A stretch of 27,911 bases of DNA from a virus. The position numbers and the translations under genes are program-made. Of this stretch, positions 2 through 25,058 are shown piece by piece. Each line of letters begins with the position of its first letter. Position 1 is the stretch's first letter. Under the pieces are notes generated by a model. That model saw only the letters and a program-made list of their open reading frames with translations. It was not told where the DNA came from and did no database searches. The stretch is from positions 1 to 27,911 of the IMG/VR virus record IMGVR_UViG_3300032092_003411; one strand, written 5' to 3'.

Positions 2-277
2 TGGCGTGGTGTTCGTCCTACCATGCACTATAGTGTTAGTCGTGAAGACTATCTAATTCATCACAATACTAGTACTGCGCCAGACCATGCAGGTCTATTA
101 TCAGAAGGCTACAAAAAACAAAAGCTTCGAGCCCATAGTGATTTCTATTGGAATACTGCAACAAATGAATGGGCGCTGGGCTTTTTAAATACGCACGATA
201 TTATGGCAGAAAGTAAAGGTAAAAACTTAGCATCATTTGCCCTTGCTAAACAAGCTAAAGAATTAGGTTTGCTGTAG
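2..277 (+). CDS. Unrecognised protein, C-terminal part (5' end outside window)
   Basis: The frame is open from the left edge to a TAG stop, giving 91 readable residues. An ATG at 23 exists but has no Shine-Dalgarno sequence in front of it, and the frame continues upstream without a stop, so this is most likely the end of a longer gene. The peptide is hydrophilic and His/Asn-rich at first (SREDYLIHHN), then has a Trp/Phe-rich stretch (DFYWNTATNEWALGFLN) and a Lys/Ala-rich helical end (SFALAKQAKELGLL). I recognise no family. Its 3' end overlaps the 3' end of the opposite-strand HNH gene by 15 bases (263-277), so the two are convergent. No terminator hairpin is visible after it. Confidence 0.6.
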   Translation, partial: WRGVRPTMHYSVSREDYLIHHNTSTAPDHAGLLSEGYKKQKLRAHSDFYWNTATNEWALGFLNTHDIMAESKGKNLASFALAKQAKELGLL

Positions 278-838
278 TACCCAACCCTTAGTTGATTTAT
301 ATCGACCATTGATTACAGAGCTAACTGCACCAGCACCAAGATTATATTTTTTAATAAAATCGTATCTAGTTAGCTTCGTTATTTCTAATGTTCTTTTGTT
401 GAACCAATTGTAAACAGTATGATCAAATTGAGGATGGTTTACTCCAAATTGATCTCTATTATTCCAATTGTGACGACCTTCTTTAAATAACTCTTTTCCA
501 GTTTTTCTAAATCCTTCCGATGCCTGAGATTTAATATAATCATACACACGGGAAGTTAATTTATTATTATATCTATGATGTTGTTTGTGTCCGGCTCGCA
601 TAACAACTAGTGCCATGCACATTTTCATTTTATCTTGTCCTGTTGTCATTTTAGTTAATAACCAATGACAAATAAAATGCTCCCTTGCTGTAAGAGAAAC
701 GATATTTTTTAGATTATTTGTACCGCCGAGACTTTTGGGAATAATATGATGTTTTTCTGAATACCCAATAAGCGTTCGATGTTGGGCAGAAAAAATGATA
801 GAATTATACCATTTGGTATATTTGTTTTGTAAATACAT
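263..838 (-). CDS. HNH homing endonuclease (free-standing, phage type)
   Basis: A 191-residue protein with a clear HNH nuclease core: E28-K-HH (30-31)-IIPKSLGG, N45 and the downstream EHF-x-x-H segment (E53, H54, H58), the pattern of T4-like phage HNH endonucleases. The C-terminal third (about 140-190) has a helix-turn-helix-like stretch ending NGRYKSTKGWVL, which resembles the modular NUMOD/IENR DNA-binding repeats of homing enzymes. It is expected to cut phage DNA and promote spread of its own gene; this is family knowledge, not shown here. The start is supported by AAGGAG (minus strand, 852-847), 8 bases before ATG, and a TATAAATA octamer (908-901) upstream. It lies antisense between two + strand genes, which suggests insertion. 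Confidence 0.88.
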   Translation of the reverse strand: MYLQNKYTKWYNSIIFSAQHRTLIGYSEKHHIIPKSLGGTNNLKNIVSLTAREHFICHWLLTKMTTGQDKMKMCMALVVMRAGHKQHHRYNNKLTSRVYDYIKSQASEGFRKTGKELFKEGRHNWNNRDQFGVNHPQFDHTVYNWFNKRTLEITKLTRYDFIKKYNLGAGAVSSVINGRYKSTKGWVLQQT

Positions 839-900
839 TGCTGATGCTCCTTCATAGCATTAGAGTCAGTGGATATTGGCGTATCGCGACTGGCACTTTT

Positions 901-908
901 TATTTATA
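901..908 (-). promoter_or_regulatory. Late promoter for the HNH gene (TATAAATA)
   Basis: The minus strand reads TATAAATA, the exact T4 late-promoter consensus. If spacing follows T4, transcription starts near 895, leaving a leader of about 57 bases before the ATG at 838, with AAGGAG correctly placed. It lies beside the divergent sigma70-like promoter of the helicase gene. Confidence 0.6.
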
Positions 909-936
909 CTTTTGGTTAGATTGAGTTGTAAAACGG

Positions 937-965
937 TTGACTATTTGGCAAAATCTTGCTATAAT
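937..965 (+). promoter_or_regulatory. Sigma70-type promoter of the nuclease-helicase gene
   Basis: TTGACT (937-942), a 17-base spacer and TATAAT (960-965), preceded by TGC, which makes an extended -10. This is close to the full bacterial consensus. Start of transcription would be near 972, about 24 bases before the ATG at 996. The promoter overlaps the longer reading frame that begins at 876, which argues for the start at 996. Confidence 0.8.
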
Positions 966-995
966 ATATATATACAAACACACAGAAAGACGGAA

Positions 996-3900
996 ATGGA
1001 TCTAAATACACTTTTGGACAAGAACCAAAATCATTTAGACTTTTGGGAATCATTAGAGCAAAACGGCGGGCGCCTGCTGTTTGAAGAATATGTTGCCTTA
1101 TATCTTAAGGCTACTTTGCCAGGCGACACATATTGGCTTGGCGAAGATGTAGTGCCAGCACACATAGCACAGAAATATCGTTTTACAAACCTGCTTAAAG
1201 GCAAGCGTAGTTTAGGCGGCGATGTTATTAACATTTACCAAAATCGTGCCGTTGCCTACGAATCCAAATGGTTTGACGAAAAAGAATCAATCAACTTAAA
1301 ACTGGTTGCTAACAAGCAACAGGTTATCAACAAGACTGGCATTGATCAACTTATCTTTACAACTAATGCTCGTCGAACTTCTGATGCTGTAACAGAATGG
1401 GTCGACGAAGCCGGCTTCATGTTCCAAGAAGAATGGATCACTAAAGAAGTCTATGACACAGTTAAGGCATATATTAAATGCCAAGTAAAAAAAACTTACA
1501 AACCAATGACTCCGCGAGACCAGTTCTTCCGTGATGCGTTGAGCGAACTCCAAACCGACTTTGACAAGAAGTTTGCTAAAGTAGCAACTTCTAAAATTCT
1601 TACTCGTATCTTCCAACACTGGCCTGCCGCTTCCGGTAAGGGTAGTTTCCCTCGCTTAGCCTACGATATGATTTTTGAGCCTCGTTGGAACTACAAGAAA
1701 GCATACCCTATCAACACAGTTATCAATCCAACACTAACTGTTTTGAAGGGCAATCTTGTTAAACATATTCATCACGATATTGGATTAGGTAACATTGATA
1801 ATGTAATTCATGCTATCTACGCAGGAGATGTTACTAAGGCCGCAAAGGATACAGAAGAACTACAGAGTATCCGTTCGATGGCAAAGGTGTTTGTTAATAA
1901 GATCGAGTTTGTTAAGTTCTTGCGTGAAACTCAAAATCAAACAGTTTGGGTTCATACAACTGTTCATAGTTATGACCGATTAGCTAAAGTAATGAAAGGA
2001 CAAAAGAAGAGTTTTTACTTTGCTCATATTGATGAAGTTCATCATATGATACAACCAGACTACTCAACATGGACTGCTTCTCTTAATGACTCAGACTGTC
2101 CTATTCAAATTCGTTTGATGAGTAGTGCCAATAAGCGTAAGGCCCGTGGTAACGGTGCTACATACAGCATGGATGATCCTGCGTTCTGCGACATTCAAAT
2201 TAAAGACTTAGACGAACAGACTGCTGTTAAACTTGGTTACAAACGCAAGACTGTTTTGTTAAACTATGTCTACGATGACAATAGTTTTCCAACAGATTGG
2301 GTCGAACGACTTGAGAACGGCGGACAACCTTTAATCAAACTCAAAGATACTGATATTGTTGTGCCTATGAGTTGGTTTATGGCTGTAGATAGTCTATTCC
2401 GATTCCGTGTAGAATACAGCGAACGCAATCATACCAAACTTACAGTGAACGGTATCGAAGATTGTGTAAAATTCAAAGAGTTTATGGAGGCTATCCGTCC
2501 GAAACTTCTTAAAGAACTTGCTCATTCTAACAACCATGTGTATCGTCGATTGCTCAAAGCAAAGATAATGGTCGCAGACACACATAACAACTCTACTGTA
2601 AAATTGTTAAAAGAAGTAAGTGCTATACCAGATACATTTACAGATAGTTTCGTAATCCACGATCGACTTTTAGGTGAAGGGTGGGATCCGGAGAATGGTT
2701 GGATCGACAGCAACATGTTTATCAGCCCTACTCACAGCGAGATTCGTATCTATCAAGATGTAAATCGCGGTAGCCGTATTGGCGACGGTAGTAAGTCTAT
2801 TAACTATGTTGTTCAGTTTTTCCTTAAAGATGAAGAAAATCACTTTAACAATATGTTTGCCCGTGTGAAAGCAGTTGGGGAAGCATTAGAAGTTGGTCTT
2901 GATGAAATTACAGAACAAGTAATTTTCAAACAAATTCGAAACATTCCCAAAGGAAAAAAACTGTCTCGCCAAGCAGGAACAGATGTCCTTTCCTACTATG
3001 ATGAAGTAGGGGCTGACTTCTTTGCTAACAGTTTTACCACCTACATTAAGGAAGGTCGTTATCATAAGTTTGGGCAAACAGTTAATGACATTTTTACCGA
3101 CTACCATGCTATGTTCAAAGAAAGGATGGCGTGGTTACACAATTACCAAAAAGGTTTAATCTATCAAGAGTTAGTAACTAACAACAAAGATTTCTTTACA
3201 GGATATATCGGACTTACTCGATCCACCGCAAAAAGTTCATTAAACTATAAAGATCATTATGAAAGATTTTCTCAAATTATCACAGGAGAACATCCATTAA
3301 TTTCTGATGAGAATTATTCTCTTGCTATTGACTACGCAATTCAGTATGAAGAAGCAAAGACGGATTACATTATAACAGTTGTAAATGAATGGGTATGTAA
3401 AGCATCAACTATCGCTTTTCCTGCTACAAGAGAATCAGGAAAACTGAACTCTACAGGAATGTGGCCTGTTCATCAAATTAACGAAATTAAACAAGAAATC
3501 GATTCACAGTTTGAAGTAACAAAATTCTCTACTAAAAAATTGAAAAACTTTCCTGACAGTATTTCGAAAGAAATCAAAGATCAGACGGAAGTAGTTAAAT
3601 TAATTTGGCAAAAAAACTTTTGTCTTGTAGTTCAAGAAATTATTAAACTCTGCCAAAATAAAACAATACTAACTAATAACGATTTACAATCTGCAATTGA
3701 AAACAATAATATCTATAAAAAGTTTAGAACTACACCTGCTGGTTCTTTGATATCTCTTCTAATGGAAGAAACTGAAAAGTCTATAAAGTTTAAGAACGCA
3801 GTTAAGTCTATTAATTCTTCTATTTACAAAGAATTAGTTTCTTCTCTTAAAGAATTTAAGACTCGTAGAGATATTTTAGTTGTAGAATGGAAAAAAGAAG

Positions 3901-4118
3901 AAAGAAAAAAACAACGAGAGTCTACAAAGGATATTCGCAAATCTCAATGGAGGGAAAATGTTAAAGTTGCGGCTTCAAAAAGAAAGCGTCCGATGATATG
4001 TGAAGGAAAATGGTTTGCTGGTGTAGTAGAAGCGGCTACTTATTTTAAGGTTGATCCAGGGACTATTGGTTATCGTAGGACAAAGTTTCCTGAAATATAT
4101 TACTATATTGAAAATTAA
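996..4118 (+). CDS. SF2 helicase with N-terminal Mrr-like nuclease domain and IENR1-like C-terminus
   Basis: A 1040-residue protein. Residues about 30-150 look like a PD-(D/E)xK nuclease of the Mrr type: a conserved acidic F-E-E-Y near 30, D76 in GGDVINIY and E89-S-K91. A SF2 helicase core follows: motif I SGKGS (K215), motif II DEVH (346-349), motif III SSAN (376), motif V GEGWDP (560) and motif VI QDVNRGSR (R591, R594). The order resembles single-chain restriction helicases, but no methyltransferase motif (NPPY/DPPY) is seen, so it is not a complete type ISP enzyme. The last 45 residues (about 997-1040) fit the IENR1/NUMOD1 DNA-binding motif of homing endonucleases. Base composition turns clearly more AT-rich after about 3200. 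The start at 996 is chosen because the sigma70 promoter lies just upstream; an in-frame ATG at 876 precedes that promoter. It may be a DNA-translocating nuclease acting on host or competitor DNA (inference). Confidence 0.8.
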   Translation: MDLNTLLDKNQNHLDFWESLEQNGGRLLFEEYVALYLKATLPGDTYWLGEDVVPAHIAQKYRFTNLLKGKRSLGGDVINIYQNRAVAYESKWFDEKESINLKLVANKQQVINKTGIDQLIFTTNARRTSDAVTEWVDEAGFMFQEEWITKEVYDTVKAYIKCQVKKTYKPMTPRDQFFRDALSELQTDFDKKFAKVATSKILTRIFQHWPAASGKGSFPRLAYDMIFEPRWNYKKAYPINTVINPTLTVLKGNLVKHIHHDIGLGNIDNVIHAIYAGDVTKAAKDTEELQSIRSMAKVFVNKIEFVKFLRETQNQTVWVHTTVHSYDRLAKVMKGQKKSFYFAHIDEVHHMIQPDYSTWTASLNDSDCPIQIRLMSSANKRKARGNGATYSMDDPAFCDIQIKDLDEQTAVKLGYKRKTVLLNYVYDDNSFPTDWVERLENGGQPLIKLKDTDIVVPMSWFMAVDSLFRFRVEYSERNHTKLTVNGIEDCVKFKEFMEAIRPKLLKELAHSNNHVYRRLLKAKIMVADTHNNSTVKLLKEVSAIPDTFTDSFVIHDRLLGEGWDPENGWIDSNMFISPTHSEIRIYQDVNRGSRIGDGSKSINYVVQFFLKDEENHFNNMFARVKAVGEALEVGLDEITEQVIFKQIRNIPKGKKLSRQAGTDVLSYYDEVGADFFANSFTTYIKEGRYHKFGQTVNDIFTDYHAMFKERMAWLHNYQKGLIYQELVTNNKDFFTGYIGLTRSTAKSSLNYKDHYERFSQIITGEHPLISDENYSLAIDYAIQYEEAKTDYIITVVNEWVCKASTIAFPATRESGKLNSTGMWPVHQINEIKQEIDSQFEVTKFSTKKLKNFPDSISKEIKDQTEVVKLIWQKNFCLVVQEIIKLCQNKTILTNNDLQSAIENNNIYKKFRTTPAGSLISLLMEETEKSIKFKNAVKSINSSIYKELVSSLKEFKTRRDILVVEWKKEERKKQRESTKDIRKSQWRENVKVAASKRKRPMICEGKWFAGVVEAATYFKVDPGTIGYRRTKFPEIYYYIEN

Positions 4119-4129
4119 AAGGAAATAGT

Positions 4130-4192
4130 ATGAGTAAATTGCTTCTTGCAATATTTACAAATTCCTGTATAATAAACACATTACCAGGCTAA
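4130..4192 (+). CDS. Possible 20-residue micro-ORF
   Basis: ATG preceded by AAAAGGAAAT, a fair Shine-Dalgarno sequence, encodes MSKLLLAIFTNSCIINTLPG and ends inside the first arm of the downstream RNA stem. It starts 11 bases after the helicase stop. The frame overlaps the sigma70-like promoter at 4146-4173. It could be a tiny peptide, a remnant of a gene end displaced by an insertion, or chance. Weak support only. Confidence 0.2.
   Translation: MSKLLLAIFTNSCIINTLPG
4146..4173 (+). promoter_or_regulatory. Sigma70-like promoter of the small-gene pair
   Basis: TTGCAA (4146-4151), a 16-base spacer and a perfect TATAAT (4168-4173). Expected transcription start is near 4180, eight bases before the first arm of the closing stem of the RNA described next. 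The leader to the ATG at 4331 would be about 150 bases, far longer than other leaders in this window. Confidence 0.6.
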
Positions 4193-4305
4193 CAGGTAGA
4201 AGCCGCCCGGCCCCCAACGCAATGTTGGAAGCGAACAGACAGGCGGTCCAGCGATGATATCAATGGTAGGCAATCCTATCAAGAGATTGCTAATGGCGTG
4301 TTAGC
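4188..4305 (+). ncRNA. Structured RNA or regulatory leader, closed by a 7-bp long-range stem
   Basis: The ends pair perfectly: GCTAACA (4188-4194) with TGTTAGC (4299-4305). Inside are GCCGCC/GGCGGT (4202-4207 with 4242-4247, one G-U), enclosing a hairpin CCAAC/GTTGG (4214-4218/4224-4228, loop GCAAT), and then GCAATC/GATTGC (4270-4275/4285-4290). Competing pairings exist: GCTAA (4289-4293) can pair with TTAGC (4301-4305) instead of the long-range stem, and TAGG/CCTA (4267-4270/4275-4278) competes with the third hairpin. The GC content is well above the surroundings. The segment begins just after a promoter and ends 9 bases before the Shine-Dalgarno sequence of the next gene, so it is either a cis-regulatory leader or a separate small RNA. 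It matches no RNA family I can name. Confidence 0.5.
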
Positions 4306-4330
4306 ACATTTTATAAAAGGAAATGTCCAA

Positions 4331-4549
4331 ATGACAAGAAAATTGATTAAAAAAGAAATGCACGAAAGCAAGACTGGAAACATCTACGAAGTTACACAAT
4401 TTGAAGAAACTGTTGAATACGAAGATGAAGAAATTGTCCAACATAGTATTCGAATTATGAAAACCCCATACAAGGCTGATCAAGAAGTTGAAGTCACAGA
4501 TACTACAAAATCTTTGATTGAAAAGATTGCCAAAGGAGTCTCTAAATGA
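4331..4549 (+). CDS. Small acidic protein of unknown function
   Basis: A 72-residue protein, charged and without Cys or a membrane segment. It starts basic (MTRKLIKKEMHESKTG), has an acidic middle (EETVEYEDEEIVQHS) and ends in a Lys-rich helix. The start at 4331 is chosen because AAAAGGA (4315-4321) lies upstream; a GTG at 4298 in the same frame is inside the RNA structure and has no Shine-Dalgarno sequence. The stop overlaps the next start (ATGA, 4546-4549), so the two are translationally coupled. It follows a long structured leader and a sigma70-like promoter, which points to early or host-polymerase expression. Function unknown. Confidence 0.65.
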   Translation: MTRKLIKKEMHESKTGNIYEVTQFEETVEYEDEEIVQHSIRIMKTPYKADQEVEVTDTTKSLIEKIAKGVSK

Positions 4550-4758
4550 AGGACGAAAGCTGGATTCCTATTCCGCCGCCTGGTGCAGGTAGGTTGCGTA
4601 GATTGCTACAAAATTTAGACGAGCCTGCGGAAAAACTAACTAACCACCATCTCTATAAAGAGGGGTTCGAAGACGGTTATCGACAAGCACAGGATAATCA
4701 TAAGAAACTACTAACTGCACTATCAGTAGTTTATCGAATCAACGAAAGTGATATTTAA
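4546..4758 (+). CDS. Small protein of unknown function
   Basis: A 70-residue protein coupled to the preceding gene by an ATGA overlap. The N-terminus is Pro/Trp-rich (ESWIPIPPPGAGRLRRLLQ); the C-terminal half reads as amphipathic helix (LYKEGFEDGYRQAQDNHKKL). The E-G-F-x-D-G-Y-R-x-A segment is common in small phage proteins but does not identify a function. A terminator hairpin follows 6 bases after the stop, so this is the last gene of the unit. Confidence 0.65.
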   Translation: MKDESWIPIPPPGAGRLRRLLQNLDEPAEKLTNHHLYKEGFEDGYRQAQDNHKKLLTALSVVYRINESDI

Positions 4759-4764
4759 ACGAGA

Positions 4765-4785
4765 AAAAGCCCCACTGGGGCTTTT
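4765..4785. terminator. Bidirectional rho-independent terminator
   Basis: AAAAGCCCC (4765-4773) and GGGGCTTTT (4777-4785) form a 9-bp stem with a 3-base loop. It lies between a + strand gene ending at 4758 and a - strand gene ending at 4806. On the minus strand the stem is followed by T-rich sequence (TTTTTCTC), so it should stop transcription from both sides. Confidence 0.8.
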
Positions 4786-4805
4786 CTACGAACAGGCTAA
4801 GGCTC

Positions 4806-5119: not shown

Positions 5120-5674
5120 ATGAGCTATAATTTTATTAGGTGGAGTATGTTACAAGAATCAAACACTCCAAAAACACTAGAATTATTTAAACTTCCCTAT
5201 CACAGAGAAGATTTAGATCCTAGCATCAGTTTGGACACAATAAACTATCATTACGGTAAGTTGGCTAAAACATACGTTGATCGTTACAATGCAGGCGAAG
5301 GTGATGCTGATTTTAACGAAGCTGGTGCATATTTGCACAACATTCTGTTTCCACAATATAAAAAGTATGCTGGGTCAAATCCGCCCACTGGTGCAGCTCT
5401 AGAATTTATCAACAAGCACCATAAGACATTTGATAACTTTAAAGAAAAGTTTGCTAAAACAGCCATGGGCATACAAGGCTCAGGTTGGGTATATCTTGCT
5501 CGTAATGGTGAAATCAAAACCATTGTTAATCATCAAACTCGAAATGACATAGTGTTATTAATTGATTGGTGGGAGCATGCCTGGTCCTTAGACTACCAAC
5601 ACGATAAGAAAAAGTATCTAGAGAATCAATGGAAGATCATTGACTGGGATATTGTATCTGCTAGAGTCGGCTAA
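5120..5674 (+). CDS. Fe/Mn-type superoxide dismutase
   Basis: A 184-residue protein that fits the Fe/Mn SOD family along its length: ELFKLPYHREDLDPSIS at the start, INYHYGK, FNEAGAYLHN, GSGWVYL and DWWEHAW near the end. The four metal ligands are present as H44, H73, D149 and H153, and the active-site Tyr is Y52. The gateway His that normally follows G-K (His30 of E. coli SodB) is Leu (L48). Asn-His after IKTIV suggests His in the second-sphere Gln position, as in some actinobacterial Fe-SODs. The expected reaction is disproportionation of superoxide to oxygen and peroxide, in the infected cell or virion. There is no Shine-Dalgarno sequence before 5120; an in-frame ATG at 5147 follows AGGTGG, so the protein may begin nine residues later. 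A hairpin terminator lies beyond the stop. Confidence 0.88.
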   Translation: MSYNFIRWSMLQESNTPKTLELFKLPYHREDLDPSISLDTINYHYGKLAKTYVDRYNAGEGDADFNEAGAYLHNILFPQYKKYAGSNPPTGAALEFINKHHKTFDNFKEKFAKTAMGIQGSGWVYLARNGEIKTIVNHQTRNDIVLLIDWWEHAWSLDYQHDKKKYLENQWKIIDWDIVSARVG

Positions 5675-6006: not shown

Positions 6007-6330
6007 ATGATAACAATTACCAACTCAGCACAAGTAAAAATACTAGATATTCTAGCAGAAGAAAACAATCCCAACATAGCACTACGTACATTTGTACAAG
6101 GTGGTGGTTGCAGTGGTTTTAGTTACGGGTTCACTTTAGAAGAAGAACAAGCAGAGGACGACTTTGAGTTTCCTGTAGGTAACTATAAAGTTCTAGTAGA
6201 TGCAATGAGCATGCAGTACCTACAAGGTGCTGAAATCGACTACAAAGATGAACTAATGGGTGCAAGTTTCACAATTAAAAATCCACAAGCAACTACAACA
6301 TGCGGTTGCGGATCAAGTTTCGGGGTATAA
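6007..6330 (+). CDS. IscA/HesB-family A-type Fe-S carrier
   Basis: A 107-residue protein with the full A-type carrier signature: [10 protein letters not shown] (C35) and the C-terminal CGCG pair (C99, C101), at the length usual for IscA/ErpA. The three cysteines bind an Fe-S cluster or iron for transfer to apo-proteins in the cytoplasm. HesB/IscA genes are known in marine T4-like phages, where they are viewed as host-derived metabolic genes. The next gene starts 2 bases after the stop, so the carrier and the giant fibre protein are on one late mRNA. An inverted repeat covers its promoter. Confidence 0.93.
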
Positions 6331-18100: not shown

Positions 18101-19092
18101 GCAACAATGTTTGGAATTTTGATGTTGCTGGAGATTTAAATCTACCAGATAACGGTGGTATAGTGTTTGACCGCAACAACACAACAATACGTGTGGGCAT
18201 GGGCTTCCACATTGCCAGTGGTGAAGGTATCAGTCTTGACGCTATTGATCAAAATGCTATACTAACTCTAAGTGGTGCTGGTAATGGTCCAGTAAATCAA
18301 ACTTATAACAAAACTAACGATACACTTTATACAGGTAATGACAACAGTAGTGTCACTGTAGAAAATCTAGGCGGCACTTGGAATGTACTCATAGCTGGTG
18401 ACAGCAAATACACCAGCAATGATCTCATCGGGTGGGCTCTAAGTACTGGACCTGGACCTGTGCCAGTTGGAGTATTATCAAATGGCTATAAAAGTTGGGT
18501 ATTTTCTCCAACTGGTAATTTAACATTCCCGGATGGTACTACAAACTCAGGCGATACAGTTATTTCAACCAGCACTTATAATATACAAAGTATTGGCAAT
18601 ACACTAATTCAAACCAGTGCCAATGCCGGCGCAAAGACTTGGACATTTGGTACAAATGGTTCATTAACATTCCCAGATACTACTGTACAGACCACAGCCT
18701 GGGCAGGTGGTCGTGTTGTTGCAGTACCTACTGCTAGTATAGGTGCCGCAGGAGATAAGCAAGGAGATTTAGCATTTAATAATTCCTACATATATTATTG
18801 TACTCAAAATTTTACACCATCTAGTTATTCTTCTACGATTGTCTTAACGTATTCAGGTACATATCCTACTATAGTAAAAGGCAGTATTCCTCAACCACAA
18901 GCAGGATGGGAGTTAATTCATGATGGAAATACTTATATTTTAGATGCTAATGCTACCGAAGGAAATCCAGGCGAATGGTCCTTATCATTATCAAGTAGTA
19001 TATCAGTAACTATTGGTGATAGCGTTACAATTGGGCCAGCATCAGTTCCAAATATTTGGAAGCGTGTAGCCTGGAGTGGAGACACTTGGTAA
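15130..19092 (+). CDS. Large fibre protein with embedded beta-propeller (1320 residues)
   Basis: The N-terminus (MTVLTFPTNPILGQQY, then GIQYVFDGVKWIVE) is a phage structural start. After a Gly-rich linker (GGGSGGGG, about 238) comes a propeller of SBBP/PQQ-like blades (about 246-725), each with a T/D-G-T-x-x-W strand and I-Y-V-A/T-G strand, for example GTKIWTARFADGF, NSIYVAGQT and NIYVTGSY. Blades are interrupted at about 451-525 by a non-repeat insert. Then follow LVNGAHEVVLGASGTVTLP, beta-rich shaft domains, NGSLTFPDTTVQTTAW and a tip ending IWKRVAWSGDTW. The propeller DNA is notably GC-richer (about 45-57% in sampled lines) than the flanks (25-33% in sampled lines). Its stop codon overlaps the desaturase start (TAATG). 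Confidence 0.8.
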   Translation: MTVLTFPTNPILGQQYAAPNGIQYVFDGVKWIVETTSSSSAAVTNSVQDRVAPMFVTGDHTGITFTYNAATNVMSAEVAGSTFNGDYDDLINKPTLFVGPGSATDNAIVRFDGTTGTLAQNSLVTVSDTGAIVAPQVGSVIPFYFANQAAFPSAGTYHGAVAHSHSDGKMYFAHGGVWNALANASELFSGNYDNLSNRPTIPPAYTLPTASTTVLGGVKVDGTTVTITDGVISSVGGGSGGGGDANIWVQTFESEDGAPTDVVGIAISVEYDSAGNVISLFTHSNAVGNNYYSVGKYTTTGTKIWTARFADGFDTDGWGLAVDNNSNSIYVAGQTTPETGYSVSTLTKLDSSDGTIEWSKTYDFGFASQSAVVDVDSDGNPIMVGYASNGNDNYITTTKVAAADGTIIWSRALDGQNDEEAYGMAVGPTGEVVAVGYMESFGVQDAAATLYTEPASNPLWTVGGSIISLDGVTADYSFTDGVPTFTNVVDTVGGRSVDDVIITVLGGNLGGVTGVDDMVVKVATLAANDTDNRMLVVKYAANGTIAWQKAIQFDAGFDCRGADADIDSDGNIYVTGSYRYSFESGTTSALSILKLDSTGVKQWSRRVTGNCDTFGVSVVVGADDKLYLSAMTGNNNDANNAYTWVAAKYGINGTVEWQRLIDNTTGWSFTGDIFLGDGGGSNIAVKQDYVVLAGGFGDLINSGVPHATLVQVAATGDVFSVGDWDFTAASFSGVLNSSASDITVVNAGKTDTDNVSNINVSTVTLQFDSSAFLIGTLYSAGDSSDRLVNGAHEVVLGASGTVTLPAGGTITEGYVTSNPTIQLTPATPDVASQKLVIKGGGSYDYTDNGININYYTNTAIVGDTLTFYINSPTYAGQTLYWWIYPEGANISDPGSGTVVLDGNSGTISFELDSDDNEFTLRVSPEANNYDPASLGVESGLINPDAPTFDFEHHLHLTTGNLAETSIFLGTDDHNVRTTTDGNIQITTPNTSNNVWNFDVAGDLNLPDNGGIVFDRNNTTIRVGMGFHIASGEGISLDAIDQNAILTLSGAGNGPVNQTYNKTNDTLYTGNDNSSVTVENLGGTWNVLIAGDSKYTSNDLIGWALSTGPGPVPVGVLSNGYKSWVFSPTGNLTFPDGTTNSGDTVISTSTYNIQSIGNTLIQTSANAGAKTWTFGTNGSLTFPDTTVQTTAWAGGRVVAVPTASIGAAGDKQGDLAFNNSYIYYCTQNFTPSSYSSTIVLTYSGTYPTIVKGSIPQPQAGWELIHDGNTYILDANATEGNPGEWSLSLSSSISVTIGDSVTIGPASVPNIWKRVAWSGDTW

Positions 19093-19796
19093 TGGAAATT
19101 ATCTTAGCAACACTCTTAATGACACACTTGACAATAGTGTCAGTTACCCTGTATCTACATCGTTGTCAAGCACATAGAGGAGTTGAGTTCCATCCTGCGG
19201 TAAGCCATTTCATGCGATGCTGGCTATGGCTAACAACGGGCATGACCACTAAGGCATGGGTAGCTGTTCATCGCAAACATCATCAAAATACAGATGTAGA
19301 AGGTGATCCACACTCACCGCACGTATTTGGTATTAAACGATTGCTACTAGGTGGATGGAGTTTGTATCACGAAGCAACAAAAGATCCTAACATGGTTATT
19401 AAATACGGGGCAGGGACTCCTAAAGATCGTGCCGAAGTTTTCTACACTAGATATCACCGCCATGGCATTCTTGTAATGCTGGTTATAGACCTATTGTTAT
19501 TTGGGCCATGGGGATTTTTAGTGTGGGGTGTTCAGATGATATGGATTCCATTTTGGGCGGCTGGTTTTATCAACGGAATCGGCCATTGGTGGGGCTATCG
19601 CAATGGTGAAACTAAGGATCACTCACACAATGTAAGCCCTATAGGCATACTAATTGGCGGTGAGGAACTACACAACAACCATCACTTAGAACCTGCAAAC
19701 CCTAAGTTTAGTCGCAAACCCTGGGAATTTGATCTAGGATGGTTTTATATACGCACTTTAAGTCTGCTAGGTTTAGCAAAAGTACGCACCAGCTAA
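19092..19796 (+). CDS. Membrane fatty acid desaturase (acyl-CoA/acyl-lipid type)
   Basis: A 234-residue protein with the three histidine boxes of membrane di-iron desaturases: H23-RCQA-H28, H60-RKHH (60-64) and H194-NNHH (194-198). Hydrophobic segments lie at about 3-22, 40-58 and 125-165. The end, WEFDLGWFYIRTLSLLGLAK, is typical of delta-9-type acyl desaturases. It should introduce a double bond into fatty acyl chains at the host membrane, using electrons from a carrier not encoded here; regiospecificity cannot be read. It is somewhat shorter than most bacterial homologues, but all boxes are intact. The start at 19092 overlaps the fibre stop codon (TAATG) and begins in a hydrophobic helix; an upstream in-frame ATG at 19056 lies inside the fibre gene. 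Expression is thus tied to late fibre synthesis. Confidence 0.92.
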   Translation: MEIILATLLMTHLTIVSVTLYLHRCQAHRGVEFHPAVSHFMRCWLWLTTGMTTKAWVAVHRKHHQNTDVEGDPHSPHVFGIKRLLLGGWSLYHEATKDPNMVIKYGAGTPKDRAEVFYTRYHRHGILVMLVIDLLLFGPWGFLVWGVQMIWIPFWAAGFINGIGHWWGYRNGETKDHSHNVSPIGILIGGEELHNNHHLEPANPKFSRKPWEFDLGWFYIRTLSLLGLAKVRTS

Positions 19797-20692: not shown

Positions 20693-22081
20693 ATGGCATT
20701 ACAAATTAGAAGAGGCCTTGAGGCAAATCGATCAGCAGTTACTCCTGACGAAGGCGAATTCTTATACACTACTGATCAAAGTAAATTATATGTTGGAAAC
20801 GGTACTACTCCAGGTGGCGTACTTATTACTGGGAGCGGGATTAACAGTGTTGTTGAAGATACCACTCCACAACTAGGAGGAGCATTAGATGTCAATGGAT
20901 TTAAAATTGTTAGCACAGGCAATGGCAACATTGAATTAGATCCAGATGGTACTGGTGACGTTATACTACATGGTAATTTAACAATTGATGTCAATGGTAA
21001 CGTTACTAAAACTGGTGAATTAAATATTAGTCCGACTAGTTTTACAACTTTCGGCAGTAATAATGCGTCAATCGACGGTAATGTTTTTATTACTAGAAAT
21101 AGTTACTCAACAGGAACGGCCGCCGGATTTACTTTTGCTCAACATCATAACACTGCAGACGCTGTAAATTTTACATTTTATAGAAGTAGAGGAACAGGAA
21201 ATTCCCAAGCAGTGGTTTCAAATGGTGATGACATAGTTGATCTTGCATTTGTTGGTCATGATGGCACTAGTACTCCTATAGGTGCAGGAAATATTTCTTG
21301 TCAAGTAGACGGAACTGTTAGTAGTGGAATAATTCCAGGTAGATTTAGATTTGCATTACACGATGGTGTAACTAGTGGAGCACTAGGATTACGAGCAGTA
21401 GCAGAATTAAATTCAGCGGGCGTATGGAAGGTCAACAGTATACAAAACTACAGCGGCTCTAACTTAACTGTCACAGCTACTACTGTTAACATTGCAGGGG
21501 ACCTACAACTTAACGCTCAGGGCGATTTAAGATTTGCGGATGCAGATTCTAGTAACTATGTAGCATTCCAAGCGGCTGCCACAGTCGCTGCCAACGTGAC
21601 TTGGACACTACCTAGCGCAGACGGAACTGTTGGTCAGGTGTTAACAACCAACGGTGGTGGTACATTAAGTTGGTCAACTGCATCGGGAGGATCAGGGCTA
21701 GTATCAAGAGCTAGTCTAACACCAGTAACTACTGCAGCATTAGCCAGCGGAGCAAGTGAAAATCTTATGATTACTGGCTACAAAGGATATGTTTTGTATA
21801 AAATTGAAACTTCGTCAGCAGCTTGGGTAAGATTGTATTCTAGTACTGCGGCCAGGACAGCAGATGCTAGTAGATTAGAAGGAACTGATCCACTACCAGG
21901 TGCAGGTGTTATTGCTGAAATTATATCTACAGGGTCACAGACTATTTTAATAACTCCAGGCGCACTTGGCTTTAGTACAGAAACAACTCCTAGTATACAA
22001 ATACCTTGCACTATAACAAATAAATCTGGAGCAACAACTACTATTACCGTTACATTGACTGTTCTACAAATTGAGGTATAA
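20693..22081 (+). CDS. Fibre protein with Mtd-like N-terminus and receptor-binding-type C-terminus (462 residues)
   Basis: Residues 1-45 (MALQIRRGLEANR, then PDEGEFLYTTDQSKLYVGNG) match the N-terminal virion-attachment domain seen in the Bordetella phage major tropism determinant and many tail fibres. The middle has fibre signatures (TPQLGGALDVNGFKI, WTLPSADGTVGQVLTTNGG). The last 120 residues (ASLTPVTTAALASGASE, then YKGYVLYKIETSSAAWVRLY and SRLEGTDPLPGAGVIAE) form a beta-rich domain found at the ends of marine phage fibres and are the best candidate here for contact with the host surface (inference). TAGGAG lies 6 bases before ATG. The stop is just before the protease start. Confidence 0.82.
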   Translation: MALQIRRGLEANRSAVTPDEGEFLYTTDQSKLYVGNGTTPGGVLITGSGINSVVEDTTPQLGGALDVNGFKIVSTGNGNIELDPDGTGDVILHGNLTIDVNGNVTKTGELNISPTSFTTFGSNNASIDGNVFITRNSYSTGTAAGFTFAQHHNTADAVNFTFYRSRGTGNSQAVVSNGDDIVDLAFVGHDGTSTPIGAGNISCQVDGTVSSGIIPGRFRFALHDGVTSGALGLRAVAELNSAGVWKVNSIQNYSGSNLTVTATTVNIAGDLQLNAQGDLRFADADSSNYVAFQAAATVAANVTWTLPSADGTVGQVLTTNGGGTLSWSTASGGSGLVSRASLTPVTTAALASGASENLMITGYKGYVLYKIETSSAAWVRLYSSTAARTADASRLEGTDPLPGAGVIAEIISTGSQTILITPGALGFSTETTPSIQIPCTITNKSGATTTITVTLTVLQIEV

Positions 22082-22082
22082 T

Positions 22083-25058
22083 ATGCCTATATCAGCATAC
22101 ATTAGCAAACGAGAATACATTGTTACGGTTCATAATTTTCAAGACCTAGACAGCATCTATGCTGATTTAGAAACACTTGGAAAATCTCCTGCTGGAGTAG
22201 ACCTATCTAGAAGTGTAGAATGCCTGCATCGTAGAGCTACAAGTAGAAATACACATTACTTACTAACAGATTGGGAAGCTGGTGAGCTTGCTGCCGATCA
22301 TAGAATTAAATCAGTAACCCTTGCTCCTCAATATCTAGGCATCCAAGCAGGAACATTTGCCATAGAACAAACATCTTCTTCATGGGATAAATCTTCCGCT
22401 ACTTCAAACAATATGAAAAATTGGGGTTTATTACGCTGTACAGGAGGCGAACAATTAGTCAACTGGGGTGGAACTGGATATAACGGTAACGGCACAGGCA
22501 CTCCTGCACAATCAGGTACAATCACCTTAACACAAACTGGACGCAATGTTGATGTGGTGATTTGTGACCTCAATGGTATTGTATGGAATCATCCAGAATA
22601 TACTGTTAATGCAGACGGTACTGGTGGCTCTAGAGCCATTCAGTACAATTGGGGCCAACATAACGCAGAAATAGACAACGGTGCAAACGGAACTTATATA
22701 TACGGAACTGGGGATCATTCTACACACGTTGCTGGCACAGTTGCTGGCAATACACAAGGGTGGGCCCGTGATGCTAACATTTATAGCATTTACTATGATG
22801 CTGGCAATCCTGGAAATTTTAGTTATGTATTTGATTATATTAGAGCATTTCATAGAAACAAAGCAGTGAATACAGCTACAGGTCGAAAAAATCCTACCAT
22901 TGTTAATAACAGCTGGGGGCAAAGTATTTTTCCTAGTCAATGGGAGTTTAGTGATATTACAGCAGTGACCTATAGGGGAACACGATATGAACCAGGTGGT
23001 ACTGTTACCTTTAATGGTGTAAGTGGAGTGTGTACTGCTAATACAAAGTTAGCTGATCTAGTAAATTTTGAACTTGGTGGTAATCGTATTACAACGACGG
23101 GACCATATGTTCCACCAGGTGGAAGTATTTTAACTAAGCCAAGTGCGTGGACTCAAGAAGGGCAAGAAGCATTTATAACACAATTTGCTGCTCCAGATGC
23201 ACAATACGTATTGACTGTACAAGGTCCTGCTGATATAAGTTTTATCAGTAATGTAGCCGCTGATGCTGTTTCTGGAACGATGAGTGTGCAAGTTGAAGTG
23301 GTCGTTAAACAAGGTCCTACTGTGATTAATACGTATACTGGACCTGTTAGTTCAACTACTAATGGTGGCACTATTGAATCAATAGTTGAAGAACTCACAG
23401 TTAGTCTAGCTAATACTGCTGTCTATACTGTAGAATTTAATACTACATTAGATACTGCAGGTGCAGGTGCAGACTTGTCAGTTGCAACTGCCATGAGATT
23501 TACTGTAATTACAGATGTAGTTGGTGCTGGTGCAACAGTTGCACCTATTAGCAATTCGTTATTAGGTGCTGCCAGTCTTGGTGTGTCTACAACACCGACA
23601 GTTGGAAACAGTGACGATGGGTACTGGACTCTAAACTTGCCGTTTAGTATAGAATATTTAGGTACTACGTACACTACAATATACGTAAGCACCAATCATT
23701 ATCTAACATTTGGCGGAGGGTCAACTGTCTGGAGTGGTATTAGTATAACAACTCCAAATCTTCCTAAAATCATGTGGTGTTCTGCGGATAATTCTGCACA
23801 GAGAATTTATTTTGGTGTTGAAGATGCAGGAACTGTTGGAACTTATACAGTTATTAATTCTGGTACAAGCGCATATACAATTAATTCATTATCTAATCCC
23901 ACTCTAACATTAAAAAGGGGTGATACATACACATTCAATGTCAGCGCCAGCAACCATCCTTTCTGGATTACAACAGTTCAAGGTACTGGTGCCGGAGATG
24001 CATATAACACAGGAGTTACTAATAACGGGACTGATTCAGGTACTATTACTTTTACAGTGCCTATTGATGCTCCTTCTACGCTTTATTATAGTTGTGCATT
24101 TCACGTATCAATGGGAGGTACCATTAATATTGTAGCAGGAACAAGAACATATCGTGTTAGATTAGAAGGCAACGGAGGAACGTCTGGCACGTTAGGTAGT
24201 CCTGGAATGGTATGCGAATATGTATTCTATGAAAATGCGCCGGCCCAAATTGATTTAATAACCGGCGTTAACAATAGAAAGACTGCCGGCGGTGGGTTTA
24301 CTATTCAACAGTTAAACGATTGGGGATTCATCAGTGGTCAACGTATTCCTGCTCGTGTAGCAGCATGCGATGTTGACCTAGAAGACTTATACTCTGAAGG
24401 TATTGTTATGGTTGGGGCTGCTGGCAATGGTCGGTGGAAACATGATGTACCAGGTGGTGTTGATTGGAATAACTCTTTTGAAATGTCTAGTCGTTATCCT
24501 GATAGTGTTAGTACTCCTTATTTCTATATGAGGGGCACTAGTCCAACTGCCAATGATAATCTAGTTAGCGGGCAATACAATTTACCTTCAATCTGTGTAG
24601 GCGCAGTGGACAGCATACAAATTGATCAGAAAGTTCAATTTAGTGATTGTGGTCCAGGTGTAGATATTTGGGCACCTGGAACTTATATTATTAGTGCTTT
24701 GCCAAGTGGTGGCGCCGGAGATCTTAGAAACATCACCTATCGTATTGGTAAGTTTAGCGGCACTAGTATGGCTAGCCCACAAGTATGTGGTGTATTAGCA
24801 TGTGCGCTAGAATTGTATCCGCATATGACGCAAACAGCCGCCAAGGCCTATATACTAGCCTATGCTAAAAATAATCAATTAACTGCCAACACTAATGGTC
24901 CGGCAGATGGCCAAGATTTGCAAGGTGCGCCTAATAAATTTTTATATTATCATAAAGAACGTTTAGTTACTGGAAACACTGTGCCAAAGTTAAATTATCA
25001 ACCTAGGCCTAGTACAGGATCAGTATATCCTAGACCTAGAATAAGAAGGACTCTATAA
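22083..25058 (+). CDS. Subtilisin-like serine protease with nested beta-sandwich and cupredoxin-like insertion
   Basis: A 991-residue protein. Residues about 10-95 resemble an I9-type propeptide (EYIVTVHNF, then TDWEAGELAADHRIKSVTLAP). The S8 catalytic triad is D162 (VVICDLNG), H212 (GDHSTHVAGTVAG) and S895 (FSGTSMASPQVCG), with oxyanion Asn N782 (GAAGNG). Between NNSWG (275-279) and GAAGN lies an insertion of several hundred residues: Ig-like beta regions, a nidogen-like sandwich (about 480-590, YVSTNHYLTFGG, IMWCSADNSAQRIYFG) and, inside that, a cupredoxin-like domain (about 602-686) with candidate copper ligands H625, C671, H674 and M677 (SCAFHVSMGG). The sandwich then resumes at TYRVRLEGNGG. 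No signal peptide is seen, so it is probably built into the virion with the fibres. GAGG lies 6 bases before ATG 22083. Confidence 0.9.
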   Translation: MPISAYISKREYIVTVHNFQDLDSIYADLETLGKSPAGVDLSRSVECLHRRATSRNTHYLLTDWEAGELAADHRIKSVTLAPQYLGIQAGTFAIEQTSSSWDKSSATSNNMKNWGLLRCTGGEQLVNWGGTGYNGNGTGTPAQSGTITLTQTGRNVDVVICDLNGIVWNHPEYTVNADGTGGSRAIQYNWGQHNAEIDNGANGTYIYGTGDHSTHVAGTVAGNTQGWARDANIYSIYYDAGNPGNFSYVFDYIRAFHRNKAVNTATGRKNPTIVNNSWGQSIFPSQWEFSDITAVTYRGTRYEPGGTVTFNGVSGVCTANTKLADLVNFELGGNRITTTGPYVPPGGSILTKPSAWTQEGQEAFITQFAAPDAQYVLTVQGPADISFISNVAADAVSGTMSVQVEVVVKQGPTVINTYTGPVSSTTNGGTIESIVEELTVSLANTAVYTVEFNTTLDTAGAGADLSVATAMRFTVITDVVGAGATVAPISNSLLGAASLGVSTTPTVGNSDDGYWTLNLPFSIEYLGTTYTTIYVSTNHYLTFGGGSTVWSGISITTPNLPKIMWCSADNSAQRIYFGVEDAGTVGTYTVINSGTSAYTINSLSNPTLTLKRGDTYTFNVSASNHPFWITTVQGTGAGDAYNTGVTNNGTDSGTITFTVPIDAPSTLYYSCAFHVSMGGTINIVAGTRTYRVRLEGNGGTSGTLGSPGMVCEYVFYENAPAQIDLITGVNNRKTAGGGFTIQQLNDWGFISGQRIPARVAACDVDLEDLYSEGIVMVGAAGNGRWKHDVPGGVDWNNSFEMSSRYPDSVSTPYFYMRGTSPTANDNLVSGQYNLPSICVGAVDSIQIDQKVQFSDCGPGVDIWAPGTYIISALPSGGAGDLRNITYRIGKFSGTSMASPQVCGVLACALELYPHMTQTAAKAYILAYAKNNQLTANTNGPADGQDLQGAPNKFLYYHKERLVTGNTVPKLNYQPRPSTGSVYPRPRIRRTL

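Follow-up and report, generated by a model that had tools for sequence, protein, structure and literature searches.

A conserved pseudoknotted RNA upstream of small genes in uncultivated phages

Genomic Setting of the RNA

The sequence analysed here, referred to as the window, is the 27,911-base virus record IMGVR_UViG_3300032092_003411 of IMG/VR. It contains a structured RNA (positions 4182-4305) that sits between a large open reading frame (ORF) resembling SF2 helicases (876-4118) and two small genes, p72 and p70 (Table 1). Neither small protein matched a Pfam or PHROGs profile; p72 has a possible relative in another contig (L352, 36% identity), while p70, the predicted structure of which is of low confidence (pLDDT 64), shares with its family the motif GGxGxLRxLLxxLxED...YxEGYDDGYxxAQ. 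The sigma70-like promoter that an earlier sequence-only reading of this DNA had recognised by its TATAAT at 4168 is indeed present, together with an upstream TTGCAA. In nearly all homologues described below, the RNA is preceded by a -10-like hexamer, the end of which lies 7-12 nt from P0, its first hairpin; transcription is therefore expected to begin no more than a few bases from P0, the exact start being placed here from the position of the promoter. A terminator scan of the window found no terminator directly after the RNA.

Table 1. Promoter, RNA helices and downstream genes in the window
Feature	Position	Strand	Description	Basis
Sigma70-type promoter	4146-4173	+	TTGCAA 4146-4151, spacer 16, TATAAT 4168-4173	10/12 consensus matches
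P0	4182-4185/4195-4198	+	5′ hairpin UACC/GGUA, 9-nt loop; first stem of H-type pseudoknot	covariation
P1, 5′ strand	4188-4194	+	GCUAACA, within P0 loop	covariation
P1, 3′ strand	4299-4305	+	UGUUAGC, closes pseudoknot	covariation
P2 bearing P3	4203-4246	+	P2 4203-4207/4242-4246; P3 4214-4218/4224-4228, NCAA(U) loop	covariation, conservation
P4	4248-4266	+	CCA/UGG 4248-4250/4264-4266, conserved GC/AA internal loop; variable apical P4b 4253-4255/4259-4261	
P5	4269-4275/4285-4291	+	includes GCAATC/GATTGC	covariation
P6	4306-4312/4320-4326	+	hairpin around Shine-Dalgarno AAGGA (4317-4321); putative translational expression platform	kept with changed sequence, all lineages
p72	4331-4549	+	operon gene 1, 72 aa	
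p70	4546-4758	+	operon gene 2, 70 aa	

Several further elements of the window may be mentioned. After p70, at 4764-4786, lies a GCCCCACTGGGGC hairpin that resembles a terminator and has a short run of T residues; it was not called by the terminator scan, but if it acts as a terminator, the unit of promoter, leader, p72 and p70 would be closed. A short ORF (MSKLLLAIFTNSCIINTLPG, 4130-4192) has its own Shine-Dalgarno sequence and a stop codon inside the 5′ strand of P1, and it may be a remnant, since its ATG lies upstream of the promoter. Host-like genes encode an Fe/Mn superoxide dismutase (5120-5671), an Fe-S cluster assembly protein (6007-6327), a fatty acid desaturase (19062-19793) and a subtilase (22080-25055).

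The first gene 3′ of the RNA varies by lineage and thus gives no hint of a ligand; for the same reason, autoregulation by that gene is unlikely. A gene of the p70 family is nevertheless the first or second after the RNA in five contig types (the window and those of the L014, L356, L377 and L374 types), whereas the group of L004 has other genes downstream. In that group the RNA and its downstream genes are found jointly at two different genomic sites, as predicted for a cis-acting leader. A p70 relative also occurs in a 6.9-kb phage contig from which the leader RNA is absent (L360, 3001-3201). Note also that otherwise unrelated proteins encoded after the RNA (L004 7918-8616, L023 10372-11022, L351 4143-4904, window p70 and L352 4317-4520) have in common a short motif of the type [KR]L[KR]x[ML]LxxL.

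DNA-methylase or helicase-nuclease cassettes adjoin the RNA in most of the phages. In the window, ORF 876-4118 has, to judge by eye, an N-terminus resembling nucleases and, at its other end, the NUMOD-like tail that typifies homing endonucleases, and it gave no Pfam, PHROGs or PADLOC match; an HNH homing endonuclease (263-838, minus strand; phrog_655, E 3e-34) is encoded two genes upstream of the RNA. The helicase of L004/L005 has its first ~790 residues in common with the window ORF (83%) and differs at the C-terminus, and a different helicase-like protein of 1,115 aa, with a similar tail, occupies the same place upstream of the RNA in L020. The gene directly upstream is methylase-related in L009, L038, L025 and L374 and encodes an N6/N4 methylase in L023, while L053 has no DNA-processing gene there. 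Different methylase pairs lie 1-3 kb downstream of the RNA in the L014, L041 and L356 contigs. The otherwise near-identical L014/L015 and L041/L047 differ, ~1-3 kb 3′ of the RNA, in pairs of a methylase with an unknown partner, resembling swapped restriction-modification cassettes. These cassettes would seem to form a hot spot beside the RNA rather than part of its function. S-adenosylmethionine (SAM) was considered as a ligand on account of the nearby methylases and of an S-adenosylmethionine synthetase in L004, and was rejected because neither kind of gene belongs to the operon downstream of the RNA.

Homologues and Covariation

The RNA is found in at least 17 IMG/VR phage contigs besides the window, which amount to at least 11 distinct sequences in about six lineages, on contigs of up to 320 kb; the known lineages are few, and all are uncultivated. 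The first homologue was reached through relatives of the helicase, which led to L004 and to a clear copy of the RNA after that gene, and further ones were obtained with a DNA pattern built on two conserved blocks. Relaxed versions of this pattern gave mostly chance matches among those listed, although the final one added L374 and L377. A covariance model seeded with eight sequences matched three RNAs from outside the model end to end: L025 (94.9 bits), L356 (86.9 bits, on the 320-kb contig and reached via the p70 protein) and L374 (101.8 bits, on a 260-kb contig). Weak matches of the model in L262, L258, L272, L341 and L287 were inspected and rejected, and the entry L041:206-303 of alignment A4 proved spurious, alignment A7 being used in its place. 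Whole-record searches, which covered 15 of the 18 contigs including the window, gave a single RNA copy per contig, even in the contigs of 260 and 320 kb.

In nine sequences, the alignment of which was fitted to the covariance model, standard pairs occur in 99.3% of the cells, and both sides have changed in 19 of 32 pairs; the covariation score of 0.505 compares with 0.170 for shuffled alignments (none of 500 reached it) and with at most 0.081 when the pairing partners were slid. A MAFFT alignment of the eight-sequence seed, from which L025 is absent, gave the same picture (99.6% paired, 16 pairs, 0/500 shuffles). The single-sequence fold of the window (-40.9 kcal/mol, z -2.3) is only moderately special, being equalled by two of 200 shuffles; it is the covariation in homologues that shows the helices to be real. 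There is, then, a conserved structured RNA at 4182-4305.

Searches of 50,697 phage records with DNA from four lineages gave chance matches only, and the p72, p70 and helicase proteins had no matches among them; therefore no isolate in this collection carries the RNA. When bacterial and archaeal genomes, one for each species, were scanned with the core pattern, 65 pattern matches were returned, none of which passed the covariance model. Rfam 15 found nothing at the gathering cut-off in the window and nothing near the cut-off in permissive scans of four lineages, and no ribozyme, group I or II intron or riboswitch model (preQ1 included) matched in either; ARAGORN detected no tRNA or tmRNA in the window. 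Among the weak Rfam matches on the same strand as the RNA, the best was to DUF2815 RNA (RF03084); with 14.3 bits (E 4.7; cut-off 41.2) it was dismissed as chance, the likeness being confined to 'AAAAGGAAAU...AUG' near the start codon. No earlier description of this leader was found in the literature accessible without subscription, and the family is apparently undescribed.

Architecture of the RNA

The outer stem proposed in the sequence-only reading, GCTAACA with TGTTAGC, does pair and covaries, as does GCAATC/GATTGC within P5, the two helices that had been named as the test of the fold. That reading missed the 5′ hairpin P0, and with it the fact that the outer stem, P1, is not a simple closing helix: since the 5′ strand of P1 is located in the P0 loop, the two stems constitute an H-type pseudoknot. 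Two nucleotides make up its first loop (L1) and none its second (L2), so nothing separates the stems, in all lineages. P0 was assigned by hand in ten sequences because the covariance model cannot hold it, and its variants all pair (UACC/GGUA, CUCC/GGAG, UUCC/GGAA and UGAG/CUCA; 40 of 40 cells). P1 has 7 bp in every lineage, with four of the seven pairs altered on both sides (GCUAACA/UGUUAGC, GCCAACC/GGUUGGC, GUUGAUC/GAUCAGC, GCUGAUU/AAUCAGC and GCAAAUA/UAUUUGC). Across the ten-sequence hand alignment, P0 and P1 pair in all cells, and each of the four P0 pairs, like five of the seven in P1, occurs as two or three pair types.

Three hairpin domains, in which unpaired stretches are nearly invariant, lie within the pseudoknot, and the earlier expectation of at least three helices between the closing strands is thereby borne out. 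The first domain carries, between P2 and P3, an almost invariant internal loop made of NGGCCC and GANGCGAANA. In the second, P4 is invariant and its CCA-GC...AA-UGG elements barely vary across homologues, whereas P4b covaries. The third, P5, is topped by a further helix, P5b, in other lineages and lacks it in the window. Conservation of this kind bears on the view that the RNA is a passive 5′ structure, which protects the mRNA or serves as a ribosome standby site and senses nothing. Its location at the transcript's 5′ end and a fold that is stable in every lineage agree with such a role, but protection needs no nearly invariant internal-loop sequence across diverged lineages, and we regard it as unlikely.

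The RNA lies just before the Shine-Dalgarno sequence of a small gene, as had been read, with the ATG of the window at 4331. P6, the hairpin that holds this sequence, follows P1 at a distance of 0-1 nt in all lineages. These hairpins are individually weak (-1.1 to -3.4 kcal/mol); the best-stem score is nonetheless unusual in most lineages, with a combined p of ~3e-5 over six of them, and between L356 and L377 the RNA is identical while the P6 hairpin is entirely different. The distance from P1 to the start codon is 22-30 nt in all lineages. The sequence-only reading had left the choice between a leader and a free-standing small RNA, next to which the downstream gene would be incidental, and this constant distance makes the leader the likelier of the two. 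A promoter of its own and ends that pair would suit a free-standing RNA; the ever-present hairpin around the Shine-Dalgarno sequence, the lack of a terminator and the fact that the RNA is accompanied by its downstream genes at two sites would not, and we consider that alternative quite improbable.

Two pairs of competing helices had also been proposed. The first, in which TGTTAGC leaves the outer stem for a local hairpin with GCTAA(TG) at 4289, can form in the window, but 5.6% of shuffles do equally well, and the other lineages have no homologous alternative helix (46-94% of shuffles are equal); a switch through GCTAA/TTAGC was therefore rejected as unconserved. The second opposes TAGG/CCTA (4267-4270/4275-4278) to P5, and it is P5 that the homologues keep. 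P6 and P1 lie side by side and do not exclude each other, and the sequence accordingly shows no switch. Any switching would likely consist in the stabilisation of P0/P1 and its stacking on P6, and not in strand exchange with GCTAA.

Probable Control of Translation by the Leader

Covariation, the absence of an Rfam match, a promoter of its own, the fixed distance to the start codon and p70 genes downstream in five contig types together strongly support the claim, made in the sequence-only reading, of an unassigned structured leader upstream of a two-gene unit. With a hairpin around the ribosome-binding site at its end, the RNA probably sets the amount of protein made. On balance, we favour a new family of cis-acting 5′ leader RNAs in large tailed-phage genomes that controls translation of its operon. 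Transcription would start a few bases before the element, and the 3′ end of the element would then pair with the loop of P0, so that P1 closes a coaxial H-type pseudoknot around the three hairpin domains, with P6 and its Shine-Dalgarno sequence abutting P1. A partner bound to the P2/P3 internal loop, the sequence of which is nearly invariant, probably forms or stabilises the pseudoknot, which in turn may stabilise P6 by stacking and lower translation of the operon. A single-copy knot of ~124 nt with almost invariant loop bases across diverged phages implies that a specific partner binds it and that this binding is under selection.

The partner could be a small molecule, bound in the P2/P3 internal loop of a metabolite-sensing riboswitch and setting both the pseudoknot and the Shine-Dalgarno hairpin. 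The nearly invariant unpaired NGGCCC, GANGCGAANA and CCAGC...AAUGG, the placement of the element at the extreme 5′ end and the pseudoknot adjoining the Shine-Dalgarno sequence are as one would expect. A conserved domain and a Shine-Dalgarno hairpin are present, but a conserved, mutually exclusive fold is absent, Rfam riboswitch models find no match and the downstream genes are small, unassigned and devoid of a metabolic theme. We hold a riboswitch to be possible, if somewhat unlikely. Its more specific form, an undescribed phage-only metabolite riboswitch that reports host or infection state and adjusts the dosage of a small-protein operon next to a hot spot where methylase and nuclease cassettes are swapped, is rather doubtful. 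If the RNA does sense a metabolite, a phage RNA would be reading host physiology.

Alternatively, a phage or host protein might bind the pseudoknot and block the ribosome, as in a translational operator of the T4 gene 32 kind. Mobile DNA-processing genes lie near the leader in both cases, but the knot described here encloses ~100 nt of elaborate conserved structure and the genes downstream do not encode a single-stranded DNA-binding protein (SSB). We give this protein-binding reading, too, tentative standing only. Whatever the partner of the leader, the aptamer is short enough for direct probing and its regulon consists of two small proteins.

Comparison with Known Leader RNAs

To our knowledge, few phage-specific leader RNAs of comparable size and conservation have been described. 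The closest parallel in position is the leader of gene 32 in T4 and RB69, in which a pseudoknot at the 5′ end of a phage mRNA lies just upstream of the ribosome-binding site, as the covarying P0 and P1 do here; in T4 the homing endonuclease gene segG is found directly upstream and overlaps the leader pseudoknot (PMC535899). The T4 knot measures ~28 nt, has no embedded domains and is followed by UUAAA repeats near the ribosome-binding site and by gene 32, whereas the present RNA is ~124 nt long and has three domains, loops that hardly vary and a Shine-Dalgarno hairpin. No SSB gene was found downstream, the proteins being too short and matching nothing in Pfam or PHROGs. Should the leader bind a protein, it would be a larger parallel to the gene 32 operator.

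The preQ1 riboswitches of classes I-III are likewise pseudoknot leaders at the Shine-Dalgarno sequence, on which they act, and so provide a precedent for regulation by a knot in this position; those of class III are ~100 nt long and form multibranch pseudoknots (PMC11625349). The leader described here differs from them in topology and in conserved bases, and its Shine-Dalgarno sequence lies not within the knot but in a separate, adjacent hairpin.
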